NCBI RefSeq assembly: GCF_016919245.1
Contig: NZ_JAFEJA010000003.1
Location: 434,001-498,000, forward strand
DNA length: 64,000 bases
From: Streptomyces zhihengii
GTDB taxonomy: Bacteria > Actinomycetota > Actinomycetes > Streptomycetales > Streptomycetaceae
Reading direction: 5' to 3'
Within the stretch, counting starts at the first letter, position 1; every line of letters begins with the position of its first letter. The notes below the pieces were generated by a model. It ran no database searches. It was not told the origin of the DNA and saw only the letters and a program-made list of their open reading frames with translations. Of the stretch, positions 14,489-61,761 are shown piece after piece. The position numbers and the translations under genes were made by a program.

Positions 14489-17400
14489 GGGTCCACCCCC
14501 GCCCCGCTGACGCGGGGGACCACCCGTACTCCTCGCCAACGTAGTCACGAGCAGCGGGTCCACCCCCGCAGACGCGGGGACCACAAACCGACCTGGTTGG
14601 TCTCGGCGTAGAGCTAGGGGCCACCCCCGCTTACGCGAGGACCACTCACGATCTGGTCGCGCAGCGCAGCCGGATCGGGTCCACCCCCGACGCGGGGACC
14701 ACGTTGTCGTAGCCGAGGAGGCGGGAGACGTCCGGTCCACCCCCGCAGACGCGGGGACCACCAATGAGCAGCCAGGTACGCCCCGCGTCCGCCGGGTCCA
14801 CCCCCGCAGACGCGGGGACCACCACGGACGCCTGTAGCGGCGCGGCGCCATGACGGGTCCACCCCCGCAGACGCGGGGACCACCGCTTGACAGCCTTGCC
14901 GCCGCCAACCGAGCAGGGTCCACCCCCGCAGACGCGGGGACCACAAGGCCAACGGATCTGGCTTCACGACCGACCGGGGTCCACCCCCGCAGACGCGGGG
15001 ACCACCGGTGGTCGCGGTGGGTCAGCTCGGCGATCGAGGGTCCACCCCCGCAGCCGCGGGGACCACACCCGCCTTGAGGGCCGCGGCACCCGGCACCGGG
15101 GTCCACCCCCGCAGACGCGGGGACCACGAGGGCTGGCCAGGCCGACCGGCCTCACGCACGGGTCTACCCCCGCAGACGCGGGGACCACGAGGGCTGGCCA
15201 GGCCGACCGGCCTCACGCACGGGTCTACCCCCGCAGACGCGGGGACCACCCCCGAAGGGAGGGGCACATCATGGTGCAGCCGGGTCCACCCCCGCAGACG
15301 CGGGGACCACGTACCGGAGCGCGCCGAACGCGATGACTTCCAGGGTCCACCCCCGCAGACGCGGGGACCACACTCAGGAGCCTGCACGCGGCGAGCTCGG
15401 CCGGGGTCCACCCCCGCAGACGCGGGGACCACGCGATCCGCCGGTGCTCCAGCAGCCATTCGTAGGGGCCACCCCCGCAGACGCGGGGACCACCGGATCA
15501 GCTACTGCTGCTGGCGGAGCCAGTAGGGGCCACCCCCGCAGACGCGGGGACCACGAGGGGAGGGCAGCATGGCGGAGCCCACCGTCGGGGCCACCCCCGC
15601 AGACGCGGGGACCACATCCGGCCCAGGTTCACTGCGCCCGTGCCCCAGGGGCCACCCCCGAGGACGCGGGGACCACCGCAGTTCACGGACTGGGAGCGCG
15701 GCTGGACGGGGGCCACCCCCGCAGACGCGGGGACCACTTTGAGAACTTCGCCGCCGACATGGGCGCTACGGGGCCACCCCCGCAGACGCGGGGACCACAC
15801 GGCCGCCACGTCGCCAAGGCATACCGCGCTGGGGCCACCCCCGCAGACGCGGGGACCACGTTGATCCGGGGGAGCGGGGAGTCGATGACGAGGGGCCACC
15901 CCCGCAGACGCGGGGACCACGACAGGTCCGGGGAGAGGGTGACGGCTTCGACGGGGCCACCCCCGCAGACGCGGGGACCACATACTGGGCGTTGCGGTCG
16001 AAGAACGAGCGGAGGGGCCACCCCCGCAGACGCGGGGACCACACGGCCGCCACGTCGCCAAGGCATACCGCGCTGGGGCCACCCCCGCAGACGCGGGGAC
16101 CACGTTGATCCGGGGGAGCGGGGAGTCGATGACGAGGGGCCACCCCCGCAGACGCGGGGACCACGACAGGTCCGGGGAGAGGGTGACGGCTTCGACGGGG
16201 CCACCCCCGCAGACGCGGGGACCACATACTGGGCGTTGCGGTCGAAGAACGAGCGGAGGGGCCACCCCCGCAGACGCGGGGACCACTGCCCTTCAGTCTG
16301 GGCACGAATCCGGGATCCGGGGCCACCCCCGCAGACGCGGGGACCACGGCCGGCCCGAACCCGTCCTGACCGGGGCCCAGGGGCCACCCCCGCAGACGCG
16401 GGGACCACGCGCCGCACGCCGGGCGCGGCGGCCCCGGCGCGGGGCCACCCCCGCAGACGCGGGGACCACTCCTGGGTCTGGAACAAGATCCTCTCCCCGG
16501 TGGGGCCACCCCCGCAGACGCGGGGACCACAGATCAGGGCGCCGCCGGACCCGGCCTTGACCGGGGCCACCCCCGCAGACGCGGGGACCACTCGATTCAG
16601 CTCACGGCGGCGAGCAACACGACGGGGCCACCCCCGCAGACGCGGGGACCACCGGCCAGGGCCCCGCCACGCGCATCCGTGGCGGGGGCCACCCCCGCAG
16701 ACGCGGGGACCACCCCCCGGCATAGTCGGCCATGAGGGGAACGCCGGGGCCACCCCCGCAGACGCGGGGACCACAACGGTGATCATGACAGCGATGGTGA
16801 ACATCAGGGGCCACCCCCGCGTCTGCGGGGACCACCCAGTCCCCCGACTACGCGCCCGGCACGTCGGGGGGCCACCCCCGCAGACGCGGGGACCACACGA
16901 TCCTCGACCTGCCCTTCATCACGTCCGAGGGGCCACCCCCGCAGACGCGGGGACCACAACCTATTGCTGTCGACGCTCGGCGTGGGAATGGGGCCACCCC
17001 CGCAGACGCGGGGACCACAAGATGGCCAGGCAGACGGCTCCGATCTCGACGGGGCCACCCCCGCAGGCGCGGGGACCACGTCGGCAACGACTGGCAGACC
17101 AGTACCCGCGTGGGGCCACCCCCGCAGACGCGGGGACCACATGTACGCGGCCCGCTGCGACGCCGACCAGATGGGGCCACCCCCGCAGACGCGGGGACCA
17201 CTGGACGCTCGACCAGTGGCAGCGCCCGTCGATGGGGCCACCCCCGCAGACGCGGGGACCACACCACGGCGTGGATGAGCCAGCCGTCCAACTGGGGGCC
17301 ACCCCCGCAGACGCGGGGACCACGGCGAGTGGACCGACCTCGACGCGACGACCCGGGCGCCACCCCCGCAGACGCGGGGACCACAGCCGGTGTGCCACCG

Positions 17401-20254
17401 GGTGCCGGGGTCAGCGGGGGCCACCCCCGCAGACGCGGGGACCACATCTCCTCCCACTCGTAGGAGGTCACCGACGTGGGGCCACCCCCGCAGACGCGGG
17501 GACCACCGGCACCACCTGGTCCCACATGCACGGCGAGGTGGGCCACCCCCGCAGACGCGGGGACCACTCGATGGCGGCCTGGGCGTAGGCGCCGAGGTCG
17601 GGGCCACCCCCGCAGACGCGGGGACCACTGGACCTCGGCCTGGGCCTTGTTGACGATCTCGGGGCCACCCCCGCAGACGCGGGGACCACACCACACTCAG
17701 GAGCCTGCACGCGGCGAGCTCGGGGCCACCCCCGCAGACGCGGGGACCACGCCGCACTGTGCCAGGCGGGAGCCGTCGGCCTGGGGCCACCCCCGCAGAC
17801 GCGGGGACCACTCGATGGCGGCCTGGGCGTAGGCGCCGAGGTCGGGGCCACCCCCGCAGACGCGGGGACCACACCACACTCAGGAGCCTGCACGCGGCGA
17901 GCTCGGGGCCACCCCCGCAGACGCGGGGACCACGCCGCACTGTGCCAGGCGGGAGCCGTCGGCCTGGGGCCACCCCCGCAGACGCGGGGACCACACCTGG
18001 GCGCTCTCGCGCAGCACGCAAGCACGGGGGCCACCCCCGCAGACGCGGGGACCACGGTAATTCCGCATTCGAGGCCCTTGCGGACGAGGGGCCACCCCCG
18101 CAGACGCGGGGACCACACAGGAAGGGCGCGTAGAGCGCGCTGTCGGCCTGGGGCCACCCCCGCAGACGCGGGGACCACGCGACTCCGGCGGTGGCCTGGG
18201 TGTGACCGATGGGGGCCACCCCCGCAGACGCGGGGACCACACCCCCGAGCTCATCGCCCGGGTCGCCGAACGGGGGCCACCCCCGCAGACGCGGGGACCA
18301 CACCATCCCGCCGATCGCCGTCGACGCGGCCCGGGGGCCACCCCCGCAGACGCGGGGACCACCTGCCTTACACTCAGCAGCGGACCTGTTTCTGGGGGCC
18401 ACCCCCGCAGACGCGGGGACCACACTGGTTGCGGACACACCCGAACTGACGACAAGGGGCCACCCCCGCAGACGCGGGGACCACGCCGTCGTGCGGCCCT
18501 CGGTCGTCTGGCCGACGGGGCCACCCCCGCAGACGCGGGGACCACCGATCCGCCGAGTTCGCTGATGAGGGTGGAGTAGGGCCACCCCCGCAGACGCGGG
18601 GACCACTTACGCCTGTCGGGTGTTTCCGAGTCGGCCAAGGGGCCACCCCCGCAGACGCGGGGACCACCTCCGCAGCCGGTCCCGGTGCCGGGCCCGCCGG
18701 GGGCCACCCCCGCAGACGCGGGGACCACAACGTCAGCGGGTCGGGGAAATTCGTGTCCCCGGGGCCACCCCCGCAGACGCGGGGACCACGACAAGGCCAA
18801 GTCGCTCATCTTCAACCTGTCGGGGCCACCCCCGCAGACGCGGGGACCACAGCACCTGGGCCACCCTGGCCCAGTTGTCGGGGGGGCCACCCCCGCAGAC
18901 GCGGGGACCACAAATGGGCTGCGACAACGCGAACTGACGGCGAGGGGCCACCCCCGCAGACGCGGGGACCACTTGAGAGTGGAAAGGGCAAGGGCCGGGC
19001 GGGCGGGGCCACCCCCGCAGACGCGGGGACCACTCATGCGGAATGCGGGTTCGGTGTCAGACACGGGGGCCACCCCCGCAGACGCGGGGACCACGGATTG
19101 ATCCGGCGGTGCCTGCGGAGCTTCAGGGGGCCACCCCCGCAGACGCGGGGACCACGGGTCCGCCTGTCCGAGCTGACCGAACGACAGGGGGCCACCCCCG
19201 CAGACGCGGGGACCACCCGATGGCCCCGTTCAACGCGCCCTTGAGCCCGGGGCCACCCCCGCAGACGCGGGGACCACCGGTCCGAGGGCGGCCGTGACGC
19301 GGCAGTCTGGGGGCCACCCCCGCAGACGCGGGGACCACTCGTCATCAATCAGCGGGGCAGGTTCGATGACGGGGCCACCCCCGCAGACGCGGGGGCCACG
19401 CAGCGGCCGGGCCCGGGGTCGGGCCGACCGAGGGGCCACCCCCGCAGACGCGGGGACCACGTTCGCGGCCAGGACACCGGAACGCTTCTGTCGGGGCCAC
19501 CCCCGCAGACGCGGGGACCACATGCCGCCCGCGCGTACCTGGATCGGGCTCACGGGGCCACCCCCGCAGACGCGGGGACCACTCGACAAGGCACTCTCGA
19601 TCGGGTCCGCGATCGGGGCCACCCCCGCAGACGCGGGGACCACGGTTCGCCGAATCACCTGAGCTGTCCTTGCCGGGGGCCACCCCCGCAGACGCGGGGA
19701 CCACCCACCCCTCTACTCCTGGCCGGGCACCGCCGTGGGGCCACCCCCGCAGACGCGGGGACCACCCACGGCCGCGGAGGTCGACGCTGAGGTTCCAGGG
19801 GCCACCCCCGCAGACGCGGGGACCACTTGCCGGTCTCGATCCGGCCGTTCGTGAGCACGGGGCCACCCCCGCAGACGCGGGGACCACGCCCGCATACGAC
19901 GCGATCAGCCGCGCGACCGGGGGCCACCCCCGCAGACGCGGGGACCACTCCACACCGCAGCCGTATGACGAGTCGGCCGTCGGGGCCACCCCCGCAGACG
20001 CGGGGACCACGGCGTCTGCCGCCGGCGGCGGAGCCACTCGTGGGGGCCACCCCCGCAGACGCGGGGACCACAAGGAGGTCAGAGGCGGACTGAAAAGCGG
20101 TGAGGGTCCACCCCCGCAGACGCGGGGACCACGGCAGACAAGGCCGACCCTGACGGGTGCGGTAGGGTCCACCCCCGCAGACGCGGGGACCACATCGACG
20201 GGCACACGCGCCCGCTCGCCGAGACGGGTCCACCCCCGCAGACGCGGGGACCAC
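14489..20254 (-). CRISPR. CRISPR array 1, type I-E, about 95 repeats (system A)
   Basis: The repeat is 29 bp with a near-constant 61-bp period and spacers of 32 bp. In crRNA sense (minus strand) it begins GTGGTCCCCGCG and ends in GGGGGTGGCCCC or GGGGGTGGACCC. The array lies directly downstream of cas2 of system A, with the leader at its right end (20255-20349). I estimate 95 repeats and 94 spacers from positions and period. The leader-distal end is degenerate: a 35-bp expanded repeat (14489-14523), one with several changes (14617) and a 26-bp shortened one (14677). Two spacer blocks are duplicated and one repeat (16807-16835) has an inverted core. The leader-proximal three and distal about 15 repeats carry GGGTCC (plus strand) while the middle carries GGGGCC. 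Confidence 0.97.
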
Positions 20255-20349
20255 AGGAGCTGACCTGCAGAGCTATATCGCCTGGCGATGGATTTTACCC
20301 ACTTTGCCAAACTCCGACTTTTCGGGCATATATTCCTTTCCTTCCCGTT
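20255..20349 (-). promoter_or_regulatory. Leader of CRISPR array 1
   Basis: These 95 bp lie between the cas2 stop and the first repeat and are AT-richer than their surroundings. In array sense they contain TATATG and end with CAGGTCAG at -13 to -6 relative to the first repeat. The same 8-mer occupies the same place in the leaders of arrays 3, 4 and 5. It should hold the array promoter and the Cas1-Cas2 docking sequence. Confidence 0.75.
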
Positions 20350-20724
20350 TCATGCCCCGAACCGTCGTCGTTTCGCTGCTTTGCTCCACCCTTGTTTCGG
20401 TGCTTGTCCCTCTGCCCCTGGCGCACCTGTCAACTTGGTGTGGGGGTCCGGCTGGGTGGGGCGGTGGAGGAGGGTGATGCCCTCGTGGTCGGTGGGGTGC
20501 CAGGCGTGGTCGTGGGTGCGGAAGGTGAAGCCCTGTTCGTTGTCGGTTGTGTGGGTGAGAATGGCACGGCCCTGGCCAGAGTAGGTGCGCACTTCTTCCC
20601 AAAGAATGTCCCGGACTCGGGCGGAAGGGGAGCCGATGAAGACCCCGGGAGAGATCTCCAGCAGCCAACGGGTGAGAAGCCCGCGTAGTCCGGCGGGGCA
20701 GTTGGTAAGGACAAGGACTGTCAC
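20350..20724 (-). CDS. cas2: Cas2e (type I-E), system A
   Basis: This 124-residue protein starts at a GTG overlapping the cas1 stop (GTGA). It begins MTVLVLTNCPAGLRGLLTRW and continues EISPGVFIGSPSARVRDILW, the classic Cas2e signature (TIGR01873). Cas2e forms the core of the Cas1-Cas2 integrase that inserts new spacers next to the leader; it bridges two Cas1 dimers and need not be catalytic. The C-terminal 30 residues are low-complexity, beyond the usual length of about 95. It is the last cas gene before the leader and array 1, as normal for type I-E. Confidence 0.94.
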   Translation of the reverse strand: MTVLVLTNCPAGLRGLLTRWLLEISPGVFIGSPSARVRDILWEEVRTYSGQGRAILTHTTDNEQGFTFRTHDHAWHPTDHEGITLLHRPTQPDPHTKLTGAPGAEGQAPKQGWSKAAKRRRFGA

Positions 20725-21686
20725 CAGATGGGCTCGTCCCCATAGTTACGTCCCGAAGCTAGGAGGCGGCCGTTATCGGTCTGGATGCCCACCCGGTCCG
20801 CGTCCGGGCCTTCGTCCGGCGACGCGCCGTGCTTCCCGGGGCCCTCGTAGCGCAAGAGTATTTTGATGTCGTTGGCGCAACGCGCCAAAAGTCCCTTCTG
20901 GTTGATGTGGTCTCGCAGCGCCCGTCGGGTGCGGGTCGGCACGTCCTCGTCGCCCATCGAGGCCGCGTCGAATGCGGCCGGAATTGCGATCTCCGTCTTG
21001 TAGAGGTCGGCGATATCGAGGACGAACGACCGCTCATGTCCCGAGTGTACGAATCCCAGTCCGGGGGAGCAGCCGAGTGCGGCCACCACGGCGTGAGCTA
21101 CGCCGTACATGCACTGGGCGGCTGCTGTGACTCCCTGGTTGGGGGCGTCTGCGGCAGCGAAGTCGCCGTGGTGGTATTCGCGCCGGACCCAGCGGACGCC
21201 GGTACGTTCGGATTCTCGCCGGTAGCACTCCTTGACCTGTCGGCCTTCCATCCGCAGTAGGTCGTCTCGGGTGCACCCGGCGGTGTCCTCGCCGGGGAAG
21301 CGCATGCGGTACATCTCCCGGGCTACTTCCACGCGGGTACGCCGGTTGGCCCAGGCTTTGGCCTGCGCCTCCAACAAGCCGGACGAGCGGGTGAGCCCCC
21401 GGCCGCCAGCGTAGAAGCGCACGCCGTGCTCTCCGACCCAAATCACGGCGGCGCCGCTTTCTCCGAGTAGTGCCATCGCCTGATGGGTGACGCGCGTGCC
21501 GGGGCCCAGCAGAAGCGTGCCGATGGTCGCCGAGGGTATGTGGGTCACCCCGTCAGCATCGGTGGCGGTGACGGCGTTGTCGTCCCGGTGGACGGTGCAG
21601 CGCTCCAGGTAGAGGAAGGAGGTGCGGTCGCTCACCCGGGTGAGTTCGCGCGGGGAGGACAGGGCGCGTTTGCTTACAGTGCTCAT
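20721..21686 (-). CDS. cas1: Cas1e (type I-E), system A
   Basis: This is a 321-residue Cas1 integrase. Metal-binding catalytic residues are visible: Glu147 (LLRMEGRQVK), His214 (GFVHSGH) and Asp224/Asp227 (FVLDIADLYK). The N-terminus has RTSFLYLERC and the typical GTLLLGPGTRVTHQA block. The enzyme integrates prespacers at the leader-repeat junction with Cas2e. It overlaps cas2 (GTGA) and starts 9 bp after cas6. Sequence identity to Cas1 of system B (54957-55967) is moderate by eye, so the two adaptation modules are separate lineages rather than a recent copy. Confidence 0.96.
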   Translation of the reverse strand: MSTVSKRALSSPRELTRVSDRTSFLYLERCTVHRDDNAVTATDADGVTHIPSATIGTLLLGPGTRVTHQAMALLGESGAAVIWVGEHGVRFYAGGRGLTRSSGLLEAQAKAWANRRTRVEVAREMYRMRFPGEDTAGCTRDDLLRMEGRQVKECYRRESERTGVRWVRREYHHGDFAAADAPNQGVTAAAQCMYGVAHAVVAALGCSPGLGFVHSGHERSFVLDIADLYKTEIAIPAAFDAASMGDEDVPTRTRRALRDHINQKGLLARCANDIKILLRYEGPGKHGASPDEGPDADRVGIQTDNGRLLASGRNYGDEPIW

Positions 21687-21695
21687 GACGTTGCC

Positions 21696-22472
21696 CTACC
21701 GCACCGGTGCGAGGGTCATGAGGCCGCACCCGTAGGCCTTTGACTTTCCCATTCCGTGGGTCAGTGTGCGGCGGAAGGCGGCGAGGTCGGTGATGCGCAG
21801 TTGGCCGTCGAAGGTGGCTCGGGTGAAGCGCACGTCTGCGCCCGGGCTGGAGCTGGTTTCGCGGCGGCTCTTTGAGCGCTCCGCGCGTTGTGGGAAGCGT
21901 ACTGGTGTGCGTTCGTGGACGACGAGTTGGTAGCGCCACTGCATCGGAGGCTCTTCGGCTCCCGCGTCGGCCTTCGTGTCGTTGTCGGTGGGGGCCTGTT
22001 CGTTGGGGAGGACTTCGAATCCGGCTCGTTCCTGGTGTTTGATCAGCCAGCCGATCTGGTGTCCTACTGTCATGTGGGGTGCCCGCTTGGTGGGGGAGCC
22101 GGGCGGGTCCTGTTCGCGACGGATGTAATGCAGGGGGTTGGCGGTGAGCCGGAATGCCCACTCGCCGCCCGCTGCGAGCTTGTTCAGAAACTCCCCGTAG
22201 GCGAAGGTGGTCCATCCTTCGGTGCCCAAGGTGGGCCAGCCGGCTTGCTCGGCGAGGTGGGTGAGGTCGGGGCGGTCGGGGCTTGAAATGAGCAGGTTGA
22301 TGCGGTTGGTCGGGGCCTGGTCGAGGCGCCACAGCACCCGGGGTCCGTTGCCGTCGCGGGGCGGGGGCTTGGGGAACGCCATGTCGACGGCTCCGTGCAG
22401 GCGCTGAGGCGAGGCGAGGAGTGCACGGGCGCTGGAGCGGGATGTGTTGATGCGGAAGCGGGTCAGGTACAT
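21696..22472 (-). CDS. cas6e: Cas6e (CasE) crRNA endoribonuclease, system A
   Basis: This 258-residue protein starts MYLTRFRINTSRSSARALL, a form diagnostic for Cas6e (MYLT/F...N..R..AR..L), followed by ASPQRLHGAVDMAFP; the catalytic His is expected at LHGAV. The C-terminus has the glycine-rich loop GMGKSKAYGCGLMTLAPV shared by the RAMP superfamily. It cuts the array 1 transcript within each repeat and stays bound to the 3' hairpin as part of Cascade. It sits between cas5 (9-bp gap) and cas1 (9-bp gap) in the leftward operon. Slightly longer than system B Cas6e, with an extra segment around residues 160-200. Confidence 0.95.
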   Translation of the reverse strand: MYLTRFRINTSRSSARALLASPQRLHGAVDMAFPKPPPRDGNGPRVLWRLDQAPTNRINLLISSPDRPDLTHLAEQAGWPTLGTEGWTTFAYGEFLNKLAAGGEWAFRLTANPLHYIRREQDPPGSPTKRAPHMTVGHQIGWLIKHQERAGFEVLPNEQAPTDNDTKADAGAEEPPMQWRYQLVVHERTPVRFPQRAERSKSRRETSSSPGADVRFTRATFDGQLRITDLAAFRRTLTHGMGKSKAYGCGLMTLAPVR

Positions 22473-22481
22473 CGGCGGGTC

Positions 22482-23237
22482 CTAGAAGTCGTCCGTGGCG
22501 AGGGGCGGAGCAGGCGAGTCGTGCCGCGCGGTCGGGGCCGGCCGCAGGTGGGCTGTCGGATCGTGGACAGGAGCCGAGGCTGTTGCGTGCCTGGCCTGTA
22601 TGCCGCGCATCGCGTAGCGGCGGTGGCTCGGGTTGTAGCTGAGGGGGGTGTCGCGGAGTTGGATGTCGGGGGTGTCCTGCGGCGGGCAGTCCAGAAGCAT
22701 GTTCAGTTCCGCGGGTGGCTGTTCGCGCGGTGGCCGGTGGCTGAGCGGGCCCCGGCCTCCCTGCCAGGGGGTGTTGCGGAGTGCATCCTCGAGCGGAAGG
22801 CTGCTGAGGGAGGCGTTGTCCTGCAGGAGCAGTGGGTGCGACGGCGGGCACGAGCGGCGTCCCAGGTAGGGAAGGAACCGCGGCGCATCGACGGCGGTGT
22901 ACAGGCGCCTGATGAACGTGTCCTCGCCTTCGACGCCGGCGAGGAAGACCGCGTCGGCAAGGTAGTACCGGTCCGACAGGGGCAGGGCGCGTCCGGTGTC
23001 TCTGTTCTCCGCCGTGTGGAAGTCACGGATGCGGGAGCCGGGCCGGTCGATGCGGACACCGAAGCGCAGGGCTGCTAGATCGGACAGGTCGGCGTCGCGG
23101 GGGCGGCCCTCGGCGCCGGCGAGCAGGCCGAGTACGCCGCTCTTGGTTGGGGCGTTCTCCGTGGTGCGCTGTACGAACCGGGCGGAAGCGCCCCATGACT
23201 GGAGGGGGCCGGCCAACCGCAGCAGCAGGGTGGTCAT
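22482..23237 (-). CDS. cas5e: Cas5e (CasD), system A
   Basis: This is a 251-residue Cascade subunit. The ATG at 23237 overlaps the cas7 stop (ATGA). The N-terminus MTTLLLRLAGPLQSWG is the standard Cas5e signature, followed by TKSGVLGLLAGAEGR. Cas5e caps the 5' handle of the crRNA in Cascade. A longer upstream frame exists but lies inside cas7, so it is not the start. The C-terminal 60 residues are rich in Pro, Ala and His and look disordered. Confidence 0.95.
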   Translation of the reverse strand: MTTLLLRLAGPLQSWGASARFVQRTTENAPTKSGVLGLLAGAEGRPRDADLSDLAALRFGVRIDRPGSRIRDFHTAENRDTGRALPLSDRYYLADAVFLAGVEGEDTFIRRLYTAVDAPRFLPYLGRRSCPPSHPLLLQDNASLSSLPLEDALRNTPWQGGRGPLSHRPPREQPPAELNMLLDCPPQDTPDIQLRDTPLSYNPSHRRYAMRGIQARHATASAPVHDPTAHLRPAPTARHDSPAPPLATDDF

Positions 23238-49649: not shown

Positions 49650-49738
49650 GTCCTCCTCGCTGGCGTGGGGGTGCTCCGGGCGACGGACGAGTCCCGCGGT
49701 AGGCGCCGGTGTCCTCCCCGCTGGCGTGGGGGTCCGTG
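49650..49738 (+). CRISPR. Two-repeat relic of an array-3-type CRISPR
   Basis: Repeats at 49650 (GTCCTCCTCGCTGGCGTGG...) and 49711 (GTCCTCCCCGCTGGCGTGG, truncated after GGGGTCCGTG) are 61 bp apart with a 32-bp spacer. The repeat family is that of array 3, which ends about 1 kb to the left, suggesting that the intervening DNA was inserted or that the end of the array was displaced. Confidence 0.85.
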
Positions 49739-49964
49739 CCGCCCCTGCCCTTCAGCCCCCCAGGATCGTTGCGCAGGGGGTGGGGAGTGCTCGGCTTGTT
49801 TGGCGCGCCGTGGCGGGCCCTTAGCAGGGGTGGCGGTGAGGGCCGTGAATTTTGTCAGGTCGGTGCGGATTGTCGGTGCTGGGTGTTTGAATGCGGTCAC
49901 GCTGCAGTAACTGGCTGTAGGCGGCTGTGTCGTGTCTGTATGTCAGGCGCGGCGGGGGAGAGGG
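49739..49964 (+). promoter_or_regulatory. Presumed promoter region of the system B cascade operon
   Basis: This 226-bp non-coding stretch lies between the repeat relic and the cse1 start. It includes a somewhat AT-richer part (GTGAATTTTGTCAGG near 49846), but no confident -35/-10 pair is seen. GGGGGAGAGG just before GTG 49965 is the probable ribosome site of cse1. Confidence 0.4.
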
Positions 49965-51566: not shown

Positions 51567-51642
51567 CCCTGCCGCTGACAGCCGTGCCAGTGCGCAGGCA
51601 CGGCGCGGCATCACATCCACACCCTCGTCCAAGGGACGCCTC

Positions 51643-52326: not shown

Positions 52327-53450
52327 CTGTCTACCTGGACCTGAGCGCCCTGCAGTCGGTGCCCGCCGCGAATCTGAACCGTGACGACCTCGGCTCTCCG
52401 AAGCAGGTCCGCTACGGCAACGCCTCCCGGATCCGGGTCTCCAGCCAGTCCTGGAAGCGGGCGATCCGCCATGGCGTCGAGCAGGACCTCGGGGAGAAGG
52501 CCGCCCGCACCCGCCAGGTCCCGGTGAAGGTGCGCCAGGCCCTCCAGAAGGCGGGCTGGCCCGAGGAACTGGCCGCCTTCGCGGGCGCGCAGGTCGCCGC
52601 CAGCGCCGGGAGGAAGGGTATCGGCACCGAAGCTGCCGGCCACACCTCGGTCCTGCTGTTCCTCCCGGAGGCAGCGATCGACGAACTCGCCGCCGTCTGC
52701 ACCGAGCACCGCCCCGCCCTCGAAGCCGCCGTGGGCAAGAAGAAGCCCGGCCAGGTCCTGCCCACCCAGGCCATCGAAGCGATCCTCAAGCGGCGCACCG
52801 CCTCCATCAGCCTGCTGGGCCGCATGCTCGCCGAACTCCCGGACGCCAACGTCGACGGCGCCGCCCAGGTCGCCCACGCCTTCACTACCCACGCCGCCGA
52901 ACCGCAGCGCGACTACTTCACCGCAGTCGACGACTGGCTCGGCGAAGCCGACACCGGCAGCGGCCACCTCGACACCGCCGAGTTCAGCGCCGGCGTCTTC
53001 TACCGCTACGCGACCGTCAACGTCGCCGATCTGCTGAAGAACCTCGAAGGCGACACCAAGGCCGCCCGCACCGTCCTCGGGTCCTTCGCCGAACACTTCC
53101 TCCTGTCCCTCCCGCAGGCCAAGAAGAACAGCACCGCCCCGCACACCGTCCCCGACCTCGCCTACCTCGCCGTGCGCGAACACCGCCCCCTCTCTCTGGC
53201 CGCCGCTTTCGAAACCCCCGTCACCGCCGACCAGCAGGGCGGCTTCTCCCACCCCTCCCGCACCGCCCTCGACTCCTACGCCGTCAACCTCAACCGCCTC
53301 ACCGGCCAGCGCAACCGCCGCTTCCACGGCCACACCGTGATCGACCCCGAAGCCAAGCACGCCGGACTCGGCATCGCGCACGACTCCTTCGACCAGCTCA
53401 TCGACGCCGCCATCACCACCGCCCTGCCCACCGCGGAGAACGAGCAGTGA
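52323..53450 (+). CDS. cas7e: Cas7e (CasC), system B
   Basis: This 375-residue backbone subunit starts MTVYLDLSALQSVPAANLNR with DDLGSPKQVRYGNASRIRVS following, the Cas7e signature. Also seen are SISLLGRMLAELPDANVDGA and VFYRYATVNVADLLKNL. It is coupled to cse2 and cas5 by 4-bp overlaps. It coats the crRNA in six copies. Identity with the system A copy is moderate by eye, so the two Cascades are distinct lineages. Confidence 0.96.
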   Translation: MTVYLDLSALQSVPAANLNRDDLGSPKQVRYGNASRIRVSSQSWKRAIRHGVEQDLGEKAARTRQVPVKVRQALQKAGWPEELAAFAGAQVAASAGRKGIGTEAAGHTSVLLFLPEAAIDELAAVCTEHRPALEAAVGKKKPGQVLPTQAIEAILKRRTASISLLGRMLAELPDANVDGAAQVAHAFTTHAAEPQRDYFTAVDDWLGEADTGSGHLDTAEFSAGVFYRYATVNVADLLKNLEGDTKAARTVLGSFAEHFLLSLPQAKKNSTAPHTVPDLAYLAVREHRPLSLAAAFETPVTADQQGGFSHPSRTALDSYAVNLNRLTGQRNRRFHGHTVIDPEAKHAGLGIAHDSFDQLIDAAITTALPTAENEQ

Positions 53451-54313
53451 GCGGCTTCCTGCTGCGCCTGGCCGGACCCCTGCAGTCCTGGGGAGAACGC
53501 TCCGCGTTCGCCCCCGTCCGCGACACCGCCCCCTTCCCGACCCGCTCCGCCCTCATCGGCATGTTCGCCGCCGCCGAAGGCATCGGCCGCCACGACGGCG
53601 GCCTCGACCGCTACCAGGACCTCCACCTCACCGTCCGCGTCGACCGCCCCGGCGTCCGGCTCATCGACTACCACACCGCCGGCGGCGGCTTCCCCAAAGA
53701 ACGCACCCCCGCCACCAGCGCCGGCAGCAACAAGGGCGCAGCCGTCATCACCCGCCGCCACTACCTGTCCGACGCCGTGTTCGTCGTCGCCGTCACCACA
53801 CCCGACCCAATCCTCGAACCCCTCACCACCGCCCTATGCCGCCCCCACTGGGCCCCCTACCTCGGCCGCCGCTCCTGCGTACCCGACGAGCCATTCCTCC
53901 TGCGCCGCCACGTCGACAACCCCGAAGAAGAACTCCGCACCCGCGTGCCCCTCAGCCGCCCCGCACCACGGGACCAGCACGGCCGCACAAAAGAACACGC
54001 CACAATTCAAGTCGAGTTCCTCCGAGAACAGCAGACTTCGACCCACCCGGCACCCCACCGCGACCATGCGAGAGAGCCCCTCACCACCAACACACCCGGC
54101 AGCACCGGCCCCGGCAGCCCAGGAGGCGCCCACAACATCGCCGACATCATCCAAGTCAACGACGTCCCCATCAGCTTCGCCCCACACCAGCGCGCCCACA
54201 CCTCACGCCACATCCACCGCACCCTCGAACCGCTGCCCAGCCACCTCGCCGGCCCCCAACACACCCTCATACAGCGCCTGATCGACTACGCCCACCTCGA
54301 GGACAGCGCATGA
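53447..54313 (+). CDS. cas5e: Cas5e (CasD), system B
   Basis: This 288-residue protein begins SGFLLRLAGPLQSWGERSAF and TRSALIGMFAAAEGIGRHD, the Cas5e start. RPGVRLIDYHTAGGG and YLGRRSCVPDEPFLLRR are further family blocks. It binds the crRNA 5' handle, which for this system ends GTGTGCCG, GTGCTCCG or GTGTTCCG depending on the array. The Pro/Thr-rich stretch at about 180-230 is probably a disordered insert. It is coupled to cas7 (GTGA) and cas6 (ATGA). Confidence 0.95.
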   Translation: MSGFLLRLAGPLQSWGERSAFAPVRDTAPFPTRSALIGMFAAAEGIGRHDGGLDRYQDLHLTVRVDRPGVRLIDYHTAGGGFPKERTPATSAGSNKGAAVITRRHYLSDAVFVVAVTTPDPILEPLTTALCRPHWAPYLGRRSCVPDEPFLLRRHVDNPEEELRTRVPLSRPAPRDQHGRTKEHATIQVEFLREQQTSTHPAPHRDHAREPLTTNTPGSTGPGSPGGAHNIADIIQVNDVPISFAPHQRAHTSRHIHRTLEPLPSHLAGPQHTLIQRLIDYAHLEDSA

Positions 54314-54960
54314 ACGACCACCCGGTACTCGCACGCATCCACCTCAACCCCCACAGCCGCGACGTACAACGAGACCTCCAAGACGCCACCCAGATGCACC
54401 GCACCGTCATGCGGATGGTCCCCGACCACCTCGGCGACTCCCCCCGCCTCCAAGCCGGCCTGCTCTACCGCCTCGACGAAACCGACACCGCCAGCACCCT
54501 CCTCGTCCAAGCCACCCAACTCAACCCACAGCGCCTGCCCACCGGCTACGGCACCGCAGACCTCAAAAGCCTCGGCCCGATGTTCACCGCACTCCGCACA
54601 GGACTCGCCGTCCGCTACCGCATCGTCGTCAACCCCGCCAAACGCGAACGGCTCCCTACCCAGCACAAAGGCCAACGCGGACGCATCGTGCCCCTGACCG
54701 GCCCCGACGCCGACCAATGGTGGCACCGCCGCTCCACCGAAGCAGGCATCACCCTCCACACCCTCACCCCCACCAGCACCGAACCCGTCCGCCCCCGCAC
54801 CCCCAGCACATCCCGCATGCGGCACAGCCTCCTGCGCTACGACGGCACCGCCACCGTCACCGACCCCGACGCACTACGCAACGCCATCCTGCACGGCATC
54901 GGCCGCGCCAAGCCCTACGGCGCCGGCCTCCTCAGCCTCGCCCCGGCCACCACCGCATGA
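54310..54960 (+). CDS. cas6e: Cas6e (CasE) crRNA endoribonuclease, system B
   Basis: The ATG at 54310 overlaps the cas5 stop (ATGA). The 216-residue protein starts with VLARIHLNPHSRDVQRDLQD and ATQMHRTVMRMVPDHLG, with the His expected to cleave the repeat at MHRTVM. The C-terminal glycine-rich loop is ILHGIGRAKPYGAGLLSLAP. It processes array transcripts at the hairpin base. Arrays 3, 4 and 5 have the same 5' half and similar hairpins, so this one enzyme could process all three. It is coupled to cas1 by ATGA. Confidence 0.95.
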   Translation: MNDHPVLARIHLNPHSRDVQRDLQDATQMHRTVMRMVPDHLGDSPRLQAGLLYRLDETDTASTLLVQATQLNPQRLPTGYGTADLKSLGPMFTALRTGLAVRYRIVVNPAKRERLPTQHKGQRGRIVPLTGPDADQWWHRRSTEAGITLHTLTPTSTEPVRPRTPSTSRMRHSLLRYDGTATVTDPDALRNAILHGIGRAKPYGAGLLSLAPATTA

Positions 54961-55967
54961 GCGCACCACGACGGGGCGGCGACGCCCGCCGACGACTCGC
55001 CGCCCCGACCCTCGCCATGCTCCCCCGCATCGCCGACTCCCTGTCCTTCCTCTACCTGGACATGGTCCGCGTCGTCCAAGACGACACCGGCGTCTGCGCC
55101 CAAATCCAAGTCGACGACAGCCGCACCGACACCGTCTACCTCCCCACCGCCGCCCTCTCCTGCCTCCTCCTCGGCCCAGGCGTCTCCATCACCACCCCCG
55201 CCCTGACCACCCTCGCCCGCCACGGCACCAGCGTCGTATGCACCGGCTCCGGCGGCGTCCGCGCCTACGCCGGCATCCTCCCCGACTCCCTCACCACCCA
55301 CTGGCTCGAACAGCAAGTCTCCTCCTGGAGCGACCCCGACCGCCGCCTCGACATCGCCATCCGCATGTACCAAATGCGGTTCAAAGACGCCGACCTGCCC
55401 ACCACCGTCACCCTCGACCAACTGCGCGGCATGGAAGGCCAGCGCATGAAAGCCCTCTACAAAATCCTCGCCGACCAACACGGCATCGGCCGCTTCCGCC
55501 GCAACTACCGCCCCGACCAATGGCACACACAAGACCCCGTCAACCTCGCCCTATCCGCCGCCAACACCTGCCTCTACGGCATCATCCACGCCGCCCTGCT
55601 CGCCCTCGGCCTCTCCCCAGCCCTCGGCTTCGTCCACGCCGGCACCCAGCACGCCTTCGTCTACGACATCGCCGACCTCTACAAAGCCGAGACCACGCTG
55701 CCCCTCGCCTTCGCCCTCCACGACTCCACCAACCCCGAACAAGAAGCCCGCCGCCGCTTCCGCGACAACCTGCGACTCCTACGCCTACTACCGCGCATCG
55801 TCCGCGACACCCAAACCCTCCTCACCACCACTCCACCCGACACCCTCCAGAACGACGACACCGACGAAGACCCAGCAGAGCGCCGCGACGTCCACATGGT
55901 CCACCTCTGGGACCCCAAAACCGGCGCCCTACCCGCCGGCGTCAACTACGCCGCAGGAAACGACTGA
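54957..55967 (+). CDS. cas1: Cas1e, system B
   Basis: This is a 336-residue integrase. Active-site residues are Glu160 ([10 protein letters not shown]), His227 (GFVHAGT) and Asp237/Asp240 ([10 protein letters not shown]). [20 protein letters not shown] and [15 protein letters not shown] match the Cas1e N-terminal domain. The C-terminal 40 residues are acidic and probably disordered. The ATG at 54957 overlaps the cas6 stop; cas2 overlaps by one base (TGATG). With Cas2e it should adapt arrays 3, 4 and 5, whose leaders share their last 13 bases almost exactly. Confidence 0.96.
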
Positions 55968-56284
55968 TGCCCTCCATGGTGGTCATCGCCACCACCGCCG
56001 TCCCCGACCACCTACGCGGCGCCCTCAGCCGCTGGACCAGCGAAGTCGTCCCCGGCATCTTCGTCGGCAGCATCTCAGCCCGCGTCCGCGACGAACTGTG
56101 GCGCGCCGTCACCGACACCGTCGGCAACGGCGCCGCCGTCCTCGTCCACCCCGCCGCCACCGAACAGGGCTACACCATCCGCACCGCCGGCACCCGACGC
56201 CGACTACCCGTCGACTTCGACGGACTCACCCTCATACGCATGACCGCCGCAGCCAAGGCAAAGGAAACGCAAAGCCCTTCTTAA
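55967..56284 (+). CDS. cas2: Cas2e, system B
   Basis: This 105-residue protein starts [20 protein letters not shown], with [20 protein letters not shown] as the Cas2e signature. The start ATG shares its A with the cas1 stop (TGATG); an ATG three codons later is equally possible. The last 10-15 codons ([12 protein letters not shown]) are encoded by what aligns with the conserved leader elements of arrays 3 and 5, and the stop lies only 17 bp before the first repeat of array 4. The gene end and the leader therefore overlap. Confidence 0.93.
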
Positions 56285-56301: not shown

Positions 56302-59300
56302 GTCCTCCCCGCCGACGCGGGGGTGTGCCGATCACGGGAGCCGTTCGTGAACAGCATGTCAGGTCCTCCCCGCCGACGCGGGGGTGTGCCGATGGCGCCC
56401 AGCAGGTTGAGGTCATCGAACGCGTCCTCCCCGCCGACGCGGGGGTGTGCCATCCGGTCCCGGCACCTCGCCCCGCACTCCGCAGTCCTCCCCGCCGACG
56501 CGGGGGTGTGCCGCCCTCTCCCTGAGTTTCCGGGAGGGGGCTTCAGTCCTCCCCGCCGACGCGGGGGTGTGCCGCGTCAGATCCAGTACCGCACCGGCCA
56601 CGATGCGTCCTCCCCGCCGACGCGGGGGTGTGCCGTCGGTCGCGGGTCTCGCCACGATCGCAACGCGGTCCTCCCCGCCGACGCAGGGGTGTGCCGGGGG
56701 TCGCCCTCGCGCGGGGCCGGCACGGCGGGTCCTCCCCGCCGACGCGGGGGTGTGCCGTCCGTCATCACCCGGACCATGGCGTCTCAGATGTCCTCCCCGC
56801 CGACGCGGGGGTGTGCCCTGCGGCCCGAGGCCGATCAGGGGCGCGGACTCGTCCTCCCCGCCGACGCGGGGGTGTGCCGGCGTACGCGGCCATGATGCCG
56901 CCGCACTCCTGGTCCTCCCCGCCGACGCGGGGGTGTGCCGCTGTTGGAGGAGATGTGCGAGCACGGGTACTGGTCCTCCCCGCCGACGCGGGGGTGTGCC
57001 GCATTCCGACGCCCCGGCCCTCCAATCCGACATGTCCTCCCCGCCGACGCGGGGGTGTGCCGGTGGACGCGTCGTCCTGGGCGCGCAGGTCGATGTCCTC
57101 CCCGCCGACGCGGGGGTGTGCCGCGGGCGCTGGCCGCGCTGGGGGCGTGGATGTCGTCCTCCCCGCCGACGCGGGGGTGTGCCGTCGGAGACCTGGGGCT
57201 GCCGACCGACGGCACCGTCCTCCCCGCCGACGCGGGGGTGTGCCGACGCCGCCGAACCTCCGCCGGGCCCTGCACCAGTCCTCCCCGCCGACGCGGGGGT
57301 GTGCCGGTCCACTGGGAGGGAACTCCCGTCCCTGCCAGGTCCTCCCCGCCGACGCGGGGGTGTGCCGGTAGTGCGCCCGCTCCACCCCGGAGTGCTCCCG
57401 TCCTCCCCGCCGACGCGGGGGTGTGCCTTCCCCGAGGGGAGCCGGACCGCCGTTGCGGGTGTCCTCCCCGCCGACGCGGGGGTGTGCCGCTGGTGGACTC
57501 CCTGACGAAGGGCACGACCAGGTCCTCCCCGCCGACGCGGGGGTGTGCCGCCCCCGCCGACTTCAGGCGGGGGCTCTGTCTGGTCCTCCCCGCCGACGCG
57601 GGGGTGTGCCGATCGCTGCCACGTACAGCAGGGCGATCATCCAGTCCTCCCCGCCGACGCGGGGGTGTGCCGCACACCGTGCGCTCCCGGCACCCGCTGT
57701 ACGTGTCCTCCCCGCCGACGCGGGGGTGTGCCGCTGGAGCTCGAGCTCGTCGGCCTGGCGGCGCGGTCCTCCCCGCCGACGCGGGGGTGTGCCGCCCCAC
57801 ACGGTTGGTGTGGGGCTTCTGTGTCTGTCCTCCCCGCCGACGCGGGGGTGTGCCGCCGAGCCCGGCGCCGGCGGTCGACCGGTCGGCGTCCTCCCCGCCG
57901 ACGCGGGGGTGTGCCGCGCGTGGTGCAGACCATCAAGGCGCTGCCGAAGTCCTCCCCGCCGACGCGGGGGTGTGCCGCCCGCATACGACGCGATCAGCCG
58001 CGCGACCGGGTCCTCCCCGCCGACGCGGGGGTGTGCCGGCGGCGGGCGGCCAAGCGGGCGGCAGGCATCAGTCCTCCCCGCCGACGCGGGGGTGTGCCGT
58101 GTGGGCGCGGTCATGTCCGCAAGGATCACCGGTCCTCCCCGCCGACGCGGGGGTGTGCCGCCATCGGCGGCGACGACGAGGCACTGCGGGCCGTCCTCCC
58201 CGCCGACGCGGGGGTGTGCCGACCAGCATCACCGCCGGCCTCGCCGCGGTCGCGTCCTCCCCGCCGACGCGGGGGTGTGCCGCCGGCTGGACGGTCCCAA
58301 CTGCCGTTGGTGTGGTCCTCCCCGCCGACGCGGGGGTGTGCCGCTCATCCGCAAAGAGAATGCGCGGCTCTTCGGGTCCTCCCCGCCGACGCGGGGGTGT
58401 GCCGCGGGCGTACGGCTTGTGGCTGCCGGGGCACGGGTCCTCCCCGCCGACGCGGGGGTGTGCCGGTGCGGGTCACGATCGCCGAGGTCGCGCAGGAGTC
58501 CTCCCCGCCGACGCGGGGGTGTGCCGGCAGCCGCCGCCGCCGGGGTCGGCCGGTCGTCCTCCCCGCCGACGCGGGGGTGTGCCGCGCTCAGGGCCGCCGT
58601 GAAGGGCCTGGGAGTCGTCCTCCCCGCCGACGCGGGGGTGTGCCGCAGGAGGAGTACCGTAAAGCACTCGCGAAGCTGTCCTCCCCGCCGACGCGGGGGT
58701 GTGCCCCTTCCACGACCGCCCGGCCGGCCCCTGGACGGGTCCTCCCCGCCGACGCGGGGGTGTGCCGCCGGCGGCACCCCGCCCGGCCGCCGCTGCGACG
58801 TCCTCCCCGCCGACGCGGAGGTGTGCCGATCCGGACTGAGGGTCACCAGCGCGGCAGTAAGTCCTCCCCGCCGACGCGGGGGTGTGCCGAACTGTGGACG
58901 CAAAGACCGCCGGCGCGGCCCGTCCTCCCCGCCGACGCGGGGGTGTGCCGGCACGGCCCCATGACGGTATGGGCGGTAATCGGTCCTCCCCGCCGACGCG
59001 GGGGTGTGCCGACCGGGAAATCCTCGTGTGGGTGGATGAGGCCGTCCTCCCCGCCGACGCGGGGGTGTGCCGCGGGCCCTCGATGTCGGACGCGGGCAGG
59101 CTGGGTCCTCCCCGCCGACGCGGGGGTGTGCCGGCGTCCTGGCAGACCGTATGGAGCGCCCCGCAGTCCTCCCCGCCGACGCGGGGGTGTGCCGCTGGGC
59201 CAGGTCGAAATCTGGGAGTACGACGGCGTCCTCCCCGCCGACGCGGGGGTGTGCCGACTCCGCTCATCCCTGCGCAGCGACGGACTGTGTCCTCCCCGCC

Positions 59301-59896
59301 GACGCGGGGGTGTGCCGAACTCGGCCGGCCTCACCGACTCGGCGGGCACGTCCTCCCCGCCGACGCGGGGGTGTGCCGTGGGGGTGACCGTGCCGACAGG
59401 TGCAAGATCAGTCCTCCCCGCCGACGCGGGGGTGTGCCGCGGGCCCTCGATGTCGGACGCGGGCAGGCTGGGTCCTCCCCGCCGACGCGGGGGTGTGCCG
59501 TCGTGGGCGTGGCGCGGGGGCTGGACGTTGATGTCCTCCCCGCCGACGCGGGGGTGTGCCGCAGTCGGCAGGCTTCCGTCCACGGCCCGTTCTGTCCTCC
59601 CCGCCGACGCGGGGGTGTGCCGGAGAACGCCGCATGAACCGCACCTGCCACATCGTCCTCCCCGCCGACGCGGAGGTGTGTCGGTGCGCACGCAGGTCCG
59701 CGAGGGCAGGTACCAGTCGTCCCGCCGACGCGGGGGTGTGGCGCCACATTCGGCGGCCCAGGAAACCGGCGAACGGTCGTCCCCGCCAAGGCGGGGGTGT
59801 GCCGGCGATTCCGGTCATCAACTCCTACCGGAACTCGTCGTCCCCGCTGTCGCGGGGTGTGCCGCCCTGATCCCGTACGGCTCCGCGCTGCTCCTC
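56302..59896 (+). CRISPR. CRISPR array 4, type I-E, about 59 repeats (system B)
   Basis: Repeats of 29 bp begin GTCCTCCCCGCCGACGCGG and end GGGGTGTGCCG, with 32-bp spacers and a 61-bp period. From start positions I count about 59 repeats and 58 spacers. The last four to five (from about 59655) are degenerate: GTCGTCCCG, GTCGTCCCCGCCAAGG and GTCGTCCCCGCTGTCG. A half-repeat relic follows near 59897. One spacer occurs twice (59073 and 59439). Another (57978) matches a spacer of array 1. Confidence 0.97.
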
Positions 59897-60024
59897 ATCG
59901 TCCCCGCCGACAACGCCCTTGGCCTCAACCGGTCCCGCTACAGTGACCCCGTGCACCACCAACCCTCCCCTCAGCAGCAGGCAAAGAGGGAGCAAAGCCA
60001 CTGCTAAGCCCCAGGTCAGGAAGT
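59897..60024 (+). promoter_or_regulatory. Leader of CRISPR array 5, duplicate of leader 3
   Basis: This about 125-bp block nearly matches the one before array 3, including the fossil CCCCGCCGACAACGCCC, GGCCTCAACC, CCGCTACAGTGACCCCGTGC, CAGCAGCAGGCAAAG, GCAAAGCCACTGCTAAG and CAGGTCAGGAAG. It starts at the degenerate end of array 4, which suggests the ancestral block was an array end plus a leader. Confidence 0.78.
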
Positions 60025-61761
60025 GTCCTCCCCGCTGGGGTGGGGGTGTTCCGTCGCTGTCTGCCCTGCTGATCCAGGGGAGCAAGTCCTCCCCGCTGGG
60101 GTGGGGGTGTTCCGCATGTCAGACACCCGGACCGGTGGGGCAATCCGTCCTCCCCGCTGGGGTGGGGGTGTTCCGTGCCGACGCGGACCGTGCCCTGGCC
60201 GACGCCCGTCCTCCCCGCTGGGGTGGGGGTGTTCCGCCCCGGCCCGGTGGGCGAGGTGTTCGGATACGGTCCTCCCCGCTGGGGTGGGGGTGTTCCGTCA
60301 CCCGGGCGGAACTCGCGGGCCGCCACGTCGTCCTCCCCGCTGGGGTGGGGGTGTTCCGACACTCCTGATAGCTACGGCTTCACCGGCAAGGTCCTCCCCG
60401 CTGGGGTGGGGGTGTTCCGAGCTCAGCCAGCGAATGGTCGGCGGCGACGATGTCCTCCCCGCTGGGGTGGGGGTGTTCCGATTTCCAGCAGCTGGACTTC
60501 AGCAACGTGCAGGTCCTCCCCGCTGGGGTGGGGGTGTTCCGCGTGGCCTGCCGTTCGGCAGGCCACGCCCCGTGTCCTCCCCGCTGGGGTGGGGGTGTTC
60601 CGGTCAACGACGCGAACATCTACCACCTGCACGAGTCCTCCCCGCTGGGGTGGGGGTGTTCCAAGCACTACCAGTCCCGCCACGGTGTGGCCGTCGTCCT
60701 CCCCGCTGGGGTGGGGGTGTTCCGTTGTCCCCGTCGGGGTTGCTCGAACGGTAACTGTCCTCCCCGCTGGCGTGGGGGTGTTCCGCGGCGCTTCGCCTCG
60801 TCGGCGGTGGCGGCCGGGTCCTCCCCGCTGGCGTGGGGGTGTTCCGGTCTCAACAGGCCCCGCAAGCACAGAGAAGGGGTCCTCCCCGCTGGCGTGGGGG
60901 TGTTCCGACCAACCCTGACAGGCCACGGCCCCCGTCACCGTCCTCCCCGCTGGCGTGGGGGTGTTCCGCACGGGGCCGCGCCCCGGCGGTGTGGTGTGGC
61001 GTCCTCCCCGCTGGCGTGGGGGTGTTCCGACGTGCACCAGGCCGAGGATGGCCCCGCCGACGTCCTCCCCGCTGGCGTGGGGGTGTTCCGCCGAAGTTGC
61101 CGGAGGTGTTGGCGCCGGTGACGTCCTCCCCGCTGGCGTGGGGGTGTTCCGGCGGACCGGACGTCGCGCATGGTGTCGGTCCAGTCCTCCCCGCTGGCGT
61201 GGGGGTGTTCCGCCCATCGCTCCAGGGCCTGCGTCCTCGAGGCGGTCCTCCCCGCTGGCGTGGGGGTGTTCCGAACAAGGCCACCTGCGCCTGGCAGGCC
61301 AACCGGTCCTCCCCGCTGGCGTGGGGGTGTTCCGCGAGCTGCAGCCGCCGTAGCCGCCTCCACGGCGTCCTCCCCGCTGGCGTGGGGGTGTTCCGCGGAT
61401 CATCCCGGCGCACCGCCGGGTCTACGGGTCCTCCCCGCTGGCGTGGGGGTGTTCCGCCGATGCCGGCGAGGATGAGGGCGCAGGCGACGTTCTCCCCGCT
61501 GGCGTGGGGGTGTTCCTCTATGGCGACGGTGAGGGCCCCGACTGCTTCGGTCCTCCCCGCTGGCGTGGGGGTGTTCCGACGACGTTCGTGGGCGAGACCT
61601 GGGAGGAAATGTCCTCCCCGCTGGCGTGGGGGTGTTCCGCCCCCGCTCAGCCTGGAGGTGCGCGTGACGCTGTCCTCCCCGCTGGCGTGGGGGTGTTCCG
61701 TGTACGGGAACGGGACAAGCGCGAGACGTCGCGTCCTCCCCGCCGACGCGGGGGTGTGCCG
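60025..61761 (+). CRISPR. CRISPR array 5, type I-E, 29 repeats with mosaic repeat types (system B)
   Basis: There are 29 repeats and 28 spacers with an exact 61-bp period. Repeats 1-12 read GTCCTCCCCGCTGGGGTGG, and repeats 13-28 (from 60757) read GTCCTCCCCGCTGGCGTGG; both end GGGGTGTTCCG. The last repeat (61733) is GTCCTCCCCGCCGACGCGG ending GTGTGCCG, the array 4 type. The end lies next to a broken MFS transporter gene. Confidence 0.97.

Follow-up and report, generated by a model that had tools for sequence, protein, structure and literature searches.

Two divergent type I-E CRISPR-Cas systems side by side in Streptomyces zhihengii, with different acquisition motifs and probably complementary phage coverage

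Type I-E CRISPR (clustered regularly interspaced short palindromic repeats)-Cas systems with a Cas3-Cse1 fusion are known from Streptomyces griseus, and in this fused type the Cas3-Cse1 gene is followed by cse2-cas7-cas5-cas6-cas1-cas2, with the array after cas2. The I-E system of Streptomyces avermitilis comprises eight cas genes in one cluster with two flanking arrays of different 29-bp repeats and AAG as the only acquisition motif given; neither a second I-E system nor AAC/GAC motifs are described in the part of that report available to us (PMC4762764). Vink et al. (2021) list the I-E motifs AAC for Bifidobacterium and AAG for Geobacter, that is, in separate genera, and the accessible text describes no genome with two (PMC8482600). 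Several I-E systems in one genome are on record for the actinomycete Actinoalloteichus hoggarensis, which has five, with no comparison of their motifs or targets in the accessible sections of the source (PMC12231136). Here we analyzed a 64,000-nucleotide stretch of the Streptomyces zhihengii genome (assembly GCF_016919245.1, contig NZ_JAFEJA010000003.1, positions 434,001 to 498,000; hereafter the window), which encodes two complete type I-E sets: system A, with Cas3 and Cse1 fused, and system B, with the two as separate genes. System A has the fused-type layout but differs from it in having a complete second I-E system 14 kb away; system B resembles that of S. avermitilis in its eight genes, flanking arrays and AAG motif. 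We consider it likely that A and B are two independently inherited I-E systems with different acquisition motifs and complementary phage coverage. A limited search of the literature, in sources that were partly accessible, brought up no genome for which a pair of I-E systems had been reported to differ in motif.

The window sits on a 618-kb contig of a 9.73-Mb genome in 7 contigs, and across that genome I-E cas1 is matched just twice, once in A and once in B. All genes of A lie on the reverse strand, in the order Cas3-Cse1 fusion, cse2, cas7, cas5, cas6, cas1, cas2 and then the array. In B, cas3 is on the reverse strand, array B1 diverges from it, cse1 to cas2 run forward, and arrays B2 and B3 come last. 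The A proteins score above the cut-offs of type I-E models except for the Cas3 half of the fusion, which passes general Cas3 HD and helicase models and fails the E. coli Cas3 model (277 vs 569 bits). Cas3 of B is matched by general Cas3 models only, and the other B proteins are above the I-E cut-offs except Cas6, which narrowly misses its NCBIfam threshold (44.6 vs 45.2 bits) and passes that of Pfam (144.5 vs 25). Cas3 and Cas1 motifs are present in A, all of whose genes are open, and likewise in B. These matches uphold an earlier note on this DNA, which had claimed two complete, different I-E systems with a separate Cas1-Cas2 for each. Among solved structures, those closest in sequence are 3wvo (Cse1) and 4q2c (Cas3) for A, and 5u07 (Cse1) and 6c66/4qqw (Cas3) for B; we take 3wvo and 5u07 to be from Thermobifida fusca, a species that would then carry both lineages.

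The two systems are only 35% identical in Cas7, 39% in Cas1, 45% in Cas2 and 34% in Cas3. We searched 199 genomes of the genus with Cas7 of A, which found a match in 81, fetched the loci and classified their cas genes by tblastn. The resulting 98-row Cas7 tree has four clades: AC (33 rows), in which fused A-type and unfused C-type systems fall together; D (18); B (38); and E (9), which is remote, lacks cas3 hits and is placed where the tree flags long branches meeting. Cas7 of A and Cas7 of B belong to separate deep clades. This family tree, made for Cas7 only, establishes that the two are not recent identical copies, the pairwise identities of the other proteins agree, and a recent duplication of one system is rejected. 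Their nearest survey relatives reside in different genomes: that of A (84%) in G147, which has no B-clade row, and that of B (89%) in G130, which has no A-type row; beyond the survey, a closer named relative of A has 86% identity. Two or more Cas7e outside clade E were found in 12 of the 199 genomes searched (12 of the 76 with rows), apparent terminal-repeat duplicates in G068 and G091 being counted once each, which makes the earlier description of such a pair as uncommon a fair one. Six of these 12 dual genomes, the present one included, carry all eight genes at both loci; G130 and G147 are cut by contig ends, and in G163, whose two Cas7 genes lie on a single contig at a distance of 12 kb, one of the two loci was classified.

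Spacers were searched against phages, plasmids and genomes of the genus. Arrays A, B2 and B3 were run whole against phages and plasmids, and of the unique spacers, the genome searches covered 78 of 83 in A (39 of them against 199 genomes and 39 against 392) and 82 of 107 in B (31 against 199 and 51 against 392), with two candidate stretches scored per genome, so that the spacer match counts are lower bounds. Among the matches listed, those on plasmids seem to be mainly other CRISPR arrays. Matches with at most four mismatches over the full spacer were kept for the motif count; A_9, A_33, A_40, B2_3 and B2_26 (five mismatches), B2_14 and B3_20 (six) and weaker ones were dropped. Usable protospacers remained for 12 spacers in each system. 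In A, the protospacer follows AAC for A_21, A_52, A_64, A_65 and A_86 and GAC for A_20 and A_43, giving RAC (R, A or G) in 7/12 (p 1.8e-8) and AAG in 0/12. In B, it follows AAG for B2_6, B2_25, B2_36, B2_39 and B3_10 (5/12, p 2.0e-8) and RAC in 0/12. Background rates in the fetched loci are 0.79% for AAC, 2.28% for GAC and 0.77% for AAG. For spacers with several targets, the target with the motif was taken first. Six exist for B3_10 (one AAG and three CTG at three mismatches, two ATG at four) and two for B2_36, both at three mismatches (one AAG, one AAA in phage SF3); A_28 also matches a weaker target, which has GCA. With ties counted adversely, AAG stands at 3/12 in B (p 9.5e-5). No 3′ motif was evident by eye beside the protospacers. 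The misfits are A_26 (CGT), A_28 (AGT), A_34 (CAA as called, and entered as such, with AAC in the 32-nt register), A_83 (GTG) and A_90 (AGT) in A, and B1_1 (GAG), B2_7 (GTC), B2_24 (CAA), B2_29 (GGA), B3_3 (GGT), B3_5 (GCG) and B3_18 (TAA) in B; probably some are chance matches in GC-rich DNA and some reflect escape.

The last base of the repeat carries the same distinction. Among repeats within four mismatches of their consensus, it is C in 90/94 repeats of A and G in 102/109 of B (B1 22/23, B2 53/57, B3 27/29). The base at −1 of the A protospacers equals the last base of the preceding repeat in 8/12 cases, namely the seven with RAC and A_28, for which T is both the last base of the preceding repeat (repeat 28) and the −1 base of the best protospacer. 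An agreement of the last (−1) repeat base with the motif is given for AAG systems in the accessible text of Vink et al. (PMC8482600). In the survey, C is the usual last base in clade AC and G in clade B, with no uniform base in clade D; the arrays were called only in part, and some of the calls have a wrong strand or a shift. Beside the 80 best of at least 573 named relatives of the AC Cas7 profile, 65 arrays were called, of which 57 end in C, 7 in G and 1 in T, with a few shifted calls among these; the clade of these relatives was not assigned by tree, and at least three are survey genomes again. The G-ending arrays lie beside relatives of about 50% identity. Fused Cas3-Cse1 occurs in 22 of the loci of these 80 best relatives.

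Systems A and B also have a target phage group in common. A resident prophage (C1:4766794-4803961, ends approximate) encoding terminase, portal, protease, scaffold and major head protein is matched with up to six mismatches by eight spacers (B2_24, B1_1, B2_25, A_86, A_52, A_90, B2_3 and B3_20), and three shuffled spacer controls gave no match to it at up to seven mismatches. The closest of these matches, B2_24 (perfect, CAA) and B1_1 (one mismatch, GAG), are both beside poor motifs, and three matches with AAC or AAG carry three to four mismatches; the prophage may have escaped both systems or may carry an anti-CRISPR. Spacers A_6 and B2_28 are reverse complements over 31/32 bases, with an offset, and together outline a 33-bp duplex whose A end carries C and whose B end carries G. 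Such a pair would be expected if a site had the A motif on one side and the B motif opposite, or if both systems had used a single prespacer. Its source was not found in viral contigs (exact patterns) or in the 199 genomes of the genus (up to three mismatches). Judged from this pair and from the prophage matched by both, the same phages appear to have been sampled by A and B.

We propose that A and B are independently inherited systems, side by side, that acquire at different motifs: A (fused, clade AC) would take protospacers after AAC or GAC into repeats ending in C, and B (separate genes, clade B) would take them after AAG into repeats ending in G. Because the motifs differ, the sites that the two sample on the same phages would be different and in part interleaved, so that a phage that evades one system by motif mutation would stay visible to the other. 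In this arrangement A and B probably complement rather than duplicate each other. Both systems would be active now or have been so formerly, each Cascade would be restricted to its own CRISPR RNAs (crRNAs), and complementary coverage may be the reason why both were retained. A fuller version, in which memories are partitioned between AAC/GAC and AAG, the systems are kept together for interleaved phage sites, and the same 33-bp prespacer can be used from opposite ends, seems to us quite possible, if somewhat short of probable.

Several observations weigh against this proposal. Usable protospacers are few (12 of 83 unique spacers in A, 12 of 107 in B), 5/12 in A and 7/12 in B are misfits to the motif as called, A_26, A_34 (as called), A_83 and A_90 violate the rule linking −1 base and repeat end, and a Fisher test of C against G at −1 reaches only p 0.010. 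The S. avermitilis system is cited, in the accessible part of the source, as accepting AAN (PMC12231136); since the acquisition motif is not the interference motif, the two Cascades may overlap. No shared spacer such as A_6/B2_28 was seen among the arrays within the stretches fetched from other genomes with two systems (of 12 pairs listed, 9 were usable, with G163 excluded, two genomes lacking spacers on one side, and hits occurring more than three times per position omitted as repeat remnants). Pairs of systems from the same clade are rarer than expected, if not convincingly so (2/14 vs 4.9 expected, P 0.077), with 1/12 vs 4.2 without the reduced copy C described below (P 0.038) and 2/19 vs 5.7 when clade E is counted (P 0.043). 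The main doubt concerns activity: spacer A_34 matches the host's own genome at C2:1340574-1340606 with one mismatch and, in the 32-nt register, AAC; the conserved ketosynthase motif that it matches belongs to type I polyketide synthase genes elsewhere. The mismatch falls at position 6 of that register, a position at which E. coli Cascade tolerates mismatches. A_34 is likely a self-target of system A and should harm the cell if A is active, so that A may be silent.

That silence is the core of one alternative, in which just one of the two systems works: A would be silent or inhibited, with its array left as a record of past activity. The self-target A_34 and the several relic arrays in the region fit it, as do statements in a review that few actinomycete systems are experimentally active and that a linear-plasmid I-E system gave no detected activity (PMC12231136). 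On the other hand, all A genes are open with their motifs present, the newest 48 repeats are at most one base from consensus and 69/95 are identical to it, and 85/93 spacers are unique, all of which counts against it; we regard a silent A as rather doubtful. The pair could instead be plainly redundant, two I-E systems gathered by horizontal gene transfer whose motif difference concerns acquisition only and has no functional effect, both Cascades taking AAN. Actinomycete genomes with several I-E systems are known, as far as the accessible text goes (PMC12231136), 12/199 genomes of the genus hold at least two Cas7e outside clade E, and the nearest survey relatives of A and B lie in different genomes, which points to a probable origin of the pair from separate sources. 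Redundancy of this kind accounts poorly for the GAC used by A (A_20, A_43), which is outside AAN, and for repeat ends that track clade, and it too strikes us as possible yet short of convincing.

Adaptation crosstalk, in which prespacers trimmed by one Cas1-Cas2 enter the other array, sometimes flipped, would make A_6 a flipped B2_28 prespacer. Indeed, A_6 is the exact reverse complement of G plus B2_28, minus one base that the model assigns to the repeat, flipped 33-bp insertions are described in the available part of the S. avermitilis report (PMC4762764), and A and B have the leader anchor CAGGTCA in common. Since clades AC, B and D all have this leader motif, crosstalk at the level of arrays is possible. 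A_6/B2_28 is nevertheless a single case among 201 unique spacers, a site with the A motif at one end and the B motif at the other explains it equally well, and no shared spacer was seen in the nine usable pairs from other dual genomes; we think such crosstalk unlikely as an account of the locus. Overall, the different acquisition motifs and repeat ends favor separation of the two systems, and the common leader motif and the one 33-bp prespacer make some crosstalk possible.

The features of both systems are collected in Table 1. Nine repeat loci were called across the window, as the earlier note had stated, with 213 spacers (201 unique) where it had estimated about 210; a core repeat pattern has 291 matches genome-wide vs 16 for the reversed pattern, a chance control. 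The sizes it gave for arrays A, B1 and B3 hold, B2 has one repeat fewer than its figure of about 59, and array A extends some 60 bases beyond the bound at 14489 that it had set. Array A has 69/95 repeats identical to consensus and a few degenerate ones at its old end, with about 83–85 unique spacers and a 32-nt length in 88/93. A wrong-strand reading of this array is ruled out by the leader motif and the lack of an evident 3′ motif. Spacers are 32 nt in 22/23 cases in B1, 54/57 in B2 and 28/28 in B3, and duplicated spacers are present within A, B1 and B2. The leaders of B1, B2 and B3 have the same end, CAGGTCAGGAAG, and those of B1 and B3 are so alike that one must be a copy of the other; a reading of the B arrays as three unrelated loci is rejected on these grounds.

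Table 1. Features of systems A and B and of the small repeat loci, in window positions
Feature	Position	Strand	Remarks
CRISPR array A, 95 repeats GTGGTCCCCGCGTCTGCGGGGGTGGCCCC	14428..20254	-	newest end 20254
spacer A_34	18179..18211	-	matches polyketide synthase ketosynthase motif
spacer A_6	19888..19919	-	reverse complement of B2_28, 31/32 nt shared
A leader	20255..20349	-	ends GCAGGTCAG + 5 nt ahead of first repeat
cas2 of A	20350..20724	-	TIGR01873
cas1 of A	20721..21686	-	TIGR03638; catalytic-site motifs present
cas6/cse3 of A	21696..22472	-	type I-E model match
cas5 of A	22482..23243	-	start inferred from domain; open frame extends to 23498
cas7/cse4 of A	23234..24430	-	type I-E model match
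cse2 of A	24540..25472	-	type I-E model match
cas3-cse1 fusion of A, 1610 amino acids	25524..30356	-	HD, Walker A, DEVH, QRMGR motifs present
degenerate repeat (1-2 repeats)	30852..30880	-	nearest A type, 6 mismatches
mini-array, four repeats	33772..33983	+	three identical to repeat of clade-B survey locus L082, last B2-type
relic array, ~8 repeats	39573..40030	+	nearest survey repeat: deep clade-B locus L116, 4 mismatches
two-repeat relic	40421..40510	+	nearest clade-D repeats, 2 and 5 mismatches
cas3 of B	44070..47042	-	helicase + HD motifs present
B1 leader	47044..47166	+	114/123 bases identical to B3 leader
CRISPR array B1, 24 repeats GTCCTCCCCGCTGGCGTGGGGGTGCTCCG	47167..48599	+	repeat calling
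two-repeat remnant, B1-type	49650..49739	+	repeat comparison
cse1 of B	49932..51566	+	I-E model match
cse2 of B	51643..52326	+	I-E model match
cas7 of B	52323..53450	+	I-E model match
cas5 of B	53447..54313	+	I-E model match
cas6 of B	54286..54960	+	start inferred
cas1 of B	54972..55967	+	start inferred
cas2 of B	55964..56284	+	start inferred; 3′ end overlaps B2 leader
CRISPR array B2, 58 repeats GTCCTCCCCGCCGACGCGGGGGTGTGCCG	56302..59804	+	repeat calling
spacer B2_28	57978..58009	+	mirror of A_6
B3 leader	59902..60024	+	near copy of B1 leader
CRISPR array B3, 29 repeats	60025..61761	+	loop TGGG in newer part, TGGC in older; last repeat exactly B2-type

The four small or relic loci reported earlier at 30853, 33772, 39573 and 40421 are present, and those at 39573 and 40421 proved closest in their repeats to other I-E lineages, so that an origin of all relics as worn copies of A or B is rejected; in a control run for 40421 only, its shuffled first repeat had at least 9 mismatches to any survey repeat. 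Degenerate A-type repeats form a further relic array at C3:431664-432111, just left of the window. Clade-D arrays of the survey (L066, L067, L068, L072, L078 and L079) have repeats that end in G, C or T, and this mixture predicts a relaxed last motif base in clade D. Among individual spacers, B2_24 and B3_18 begin with C and their protospacers are preceded by AA, which amounts to AAC displaced by one; the two are possibly A-type prespacers in B arrays. With five mismatches, too many for the match to be counted, spacer A_40 resembles a clade-B cas7 gene of another genome (L090 6707-6738), which hints at a possible past encounter of system A with a mobile element carrying a B-type cas locus. Terminator-like hairpins are possible in B2 spacers 4, 21 and 25 (B2_25 by eye) and in B3 spacer 9 and might halt array transcription; on the resident prophage, the B2_25 match has AAG and three adjacent mismatches in the hairpin loop. 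In an intergenic stretch of phage Samy (OR263580.1; L019 1405-1480), next to phage tRNA genes, two hairpins with a spacing of 50 bases are near-identical to the core of the B-type repeat; they could mimic repeats in the manner of RNA anti-CRISPRs or be no more than terminators.

A third, reduced I-E Cascade (C), absent from the earlier note, lies on the same contig beyond the window, 85–90 kb upstream (C3:343816-348987), with cse1-cse2 as one 824-amino-acid frame, cas7, cas5 and cas6. No match to cas3, cas1, cas2 or an I-E array was found within a 20-kb stretch around it, and a few stray C-like repeats occur in the genome. Minimal I-E variants that likewise lack cas1, cas2 and cas3 go back to Shmakov et al. 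(2018), as cited in the accessible part of PMC12231136. Cascade C differs from them in belonging to clade AC rather than clade E, with nearest tree neighbors that are mostly full systems, and its reading as a minimal cas3-less variant is rejected because it falls inside clade AC; no STAND gene was found among the few neighbors scanned. It looks like the decay of a full system, or it could be an orphan that borrows crRNAs. The remote clade without cas3 hits, by comparison, comprises survey loci L118, L120, L121 and L123-L127 (L122 uncertain) in eight or nine genomes of the genus, and possibly corresponds to I-E variants of the minimal or Tn7-like kind that have been described from Streptomyces.

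Elsewhere in the region, an Rfam search returned nothing at the Rfam cut-offs, and PADLOC, applied to ten frames around both systems, gave one partial mad2 match and one Wadjet JetA match. Wadjet JetB and JetA genes are located at window positions 3692-6639, and at its left end the window belongs to a defence region.

These results bear on why cells retain two immune systems of one subtype, as A and B differ in the very feature that sets the sites of spacer acquisition, and in clades AC and B one base of the repeat seems enough to read it. They lead to the prediction that two I-E systems in one cell are compatible when their motif classes differ. If the partitioning of memories by motif is true, motif class, read from the last repeat base, would predict which I-E systems can share a cell; in this genome C, a third system from the clade of A, appears to have decayed. 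For the genus, AAG is not safe to assume for every Streptomyces I-E system, which matters for target prediction and for native genome-editing tools.

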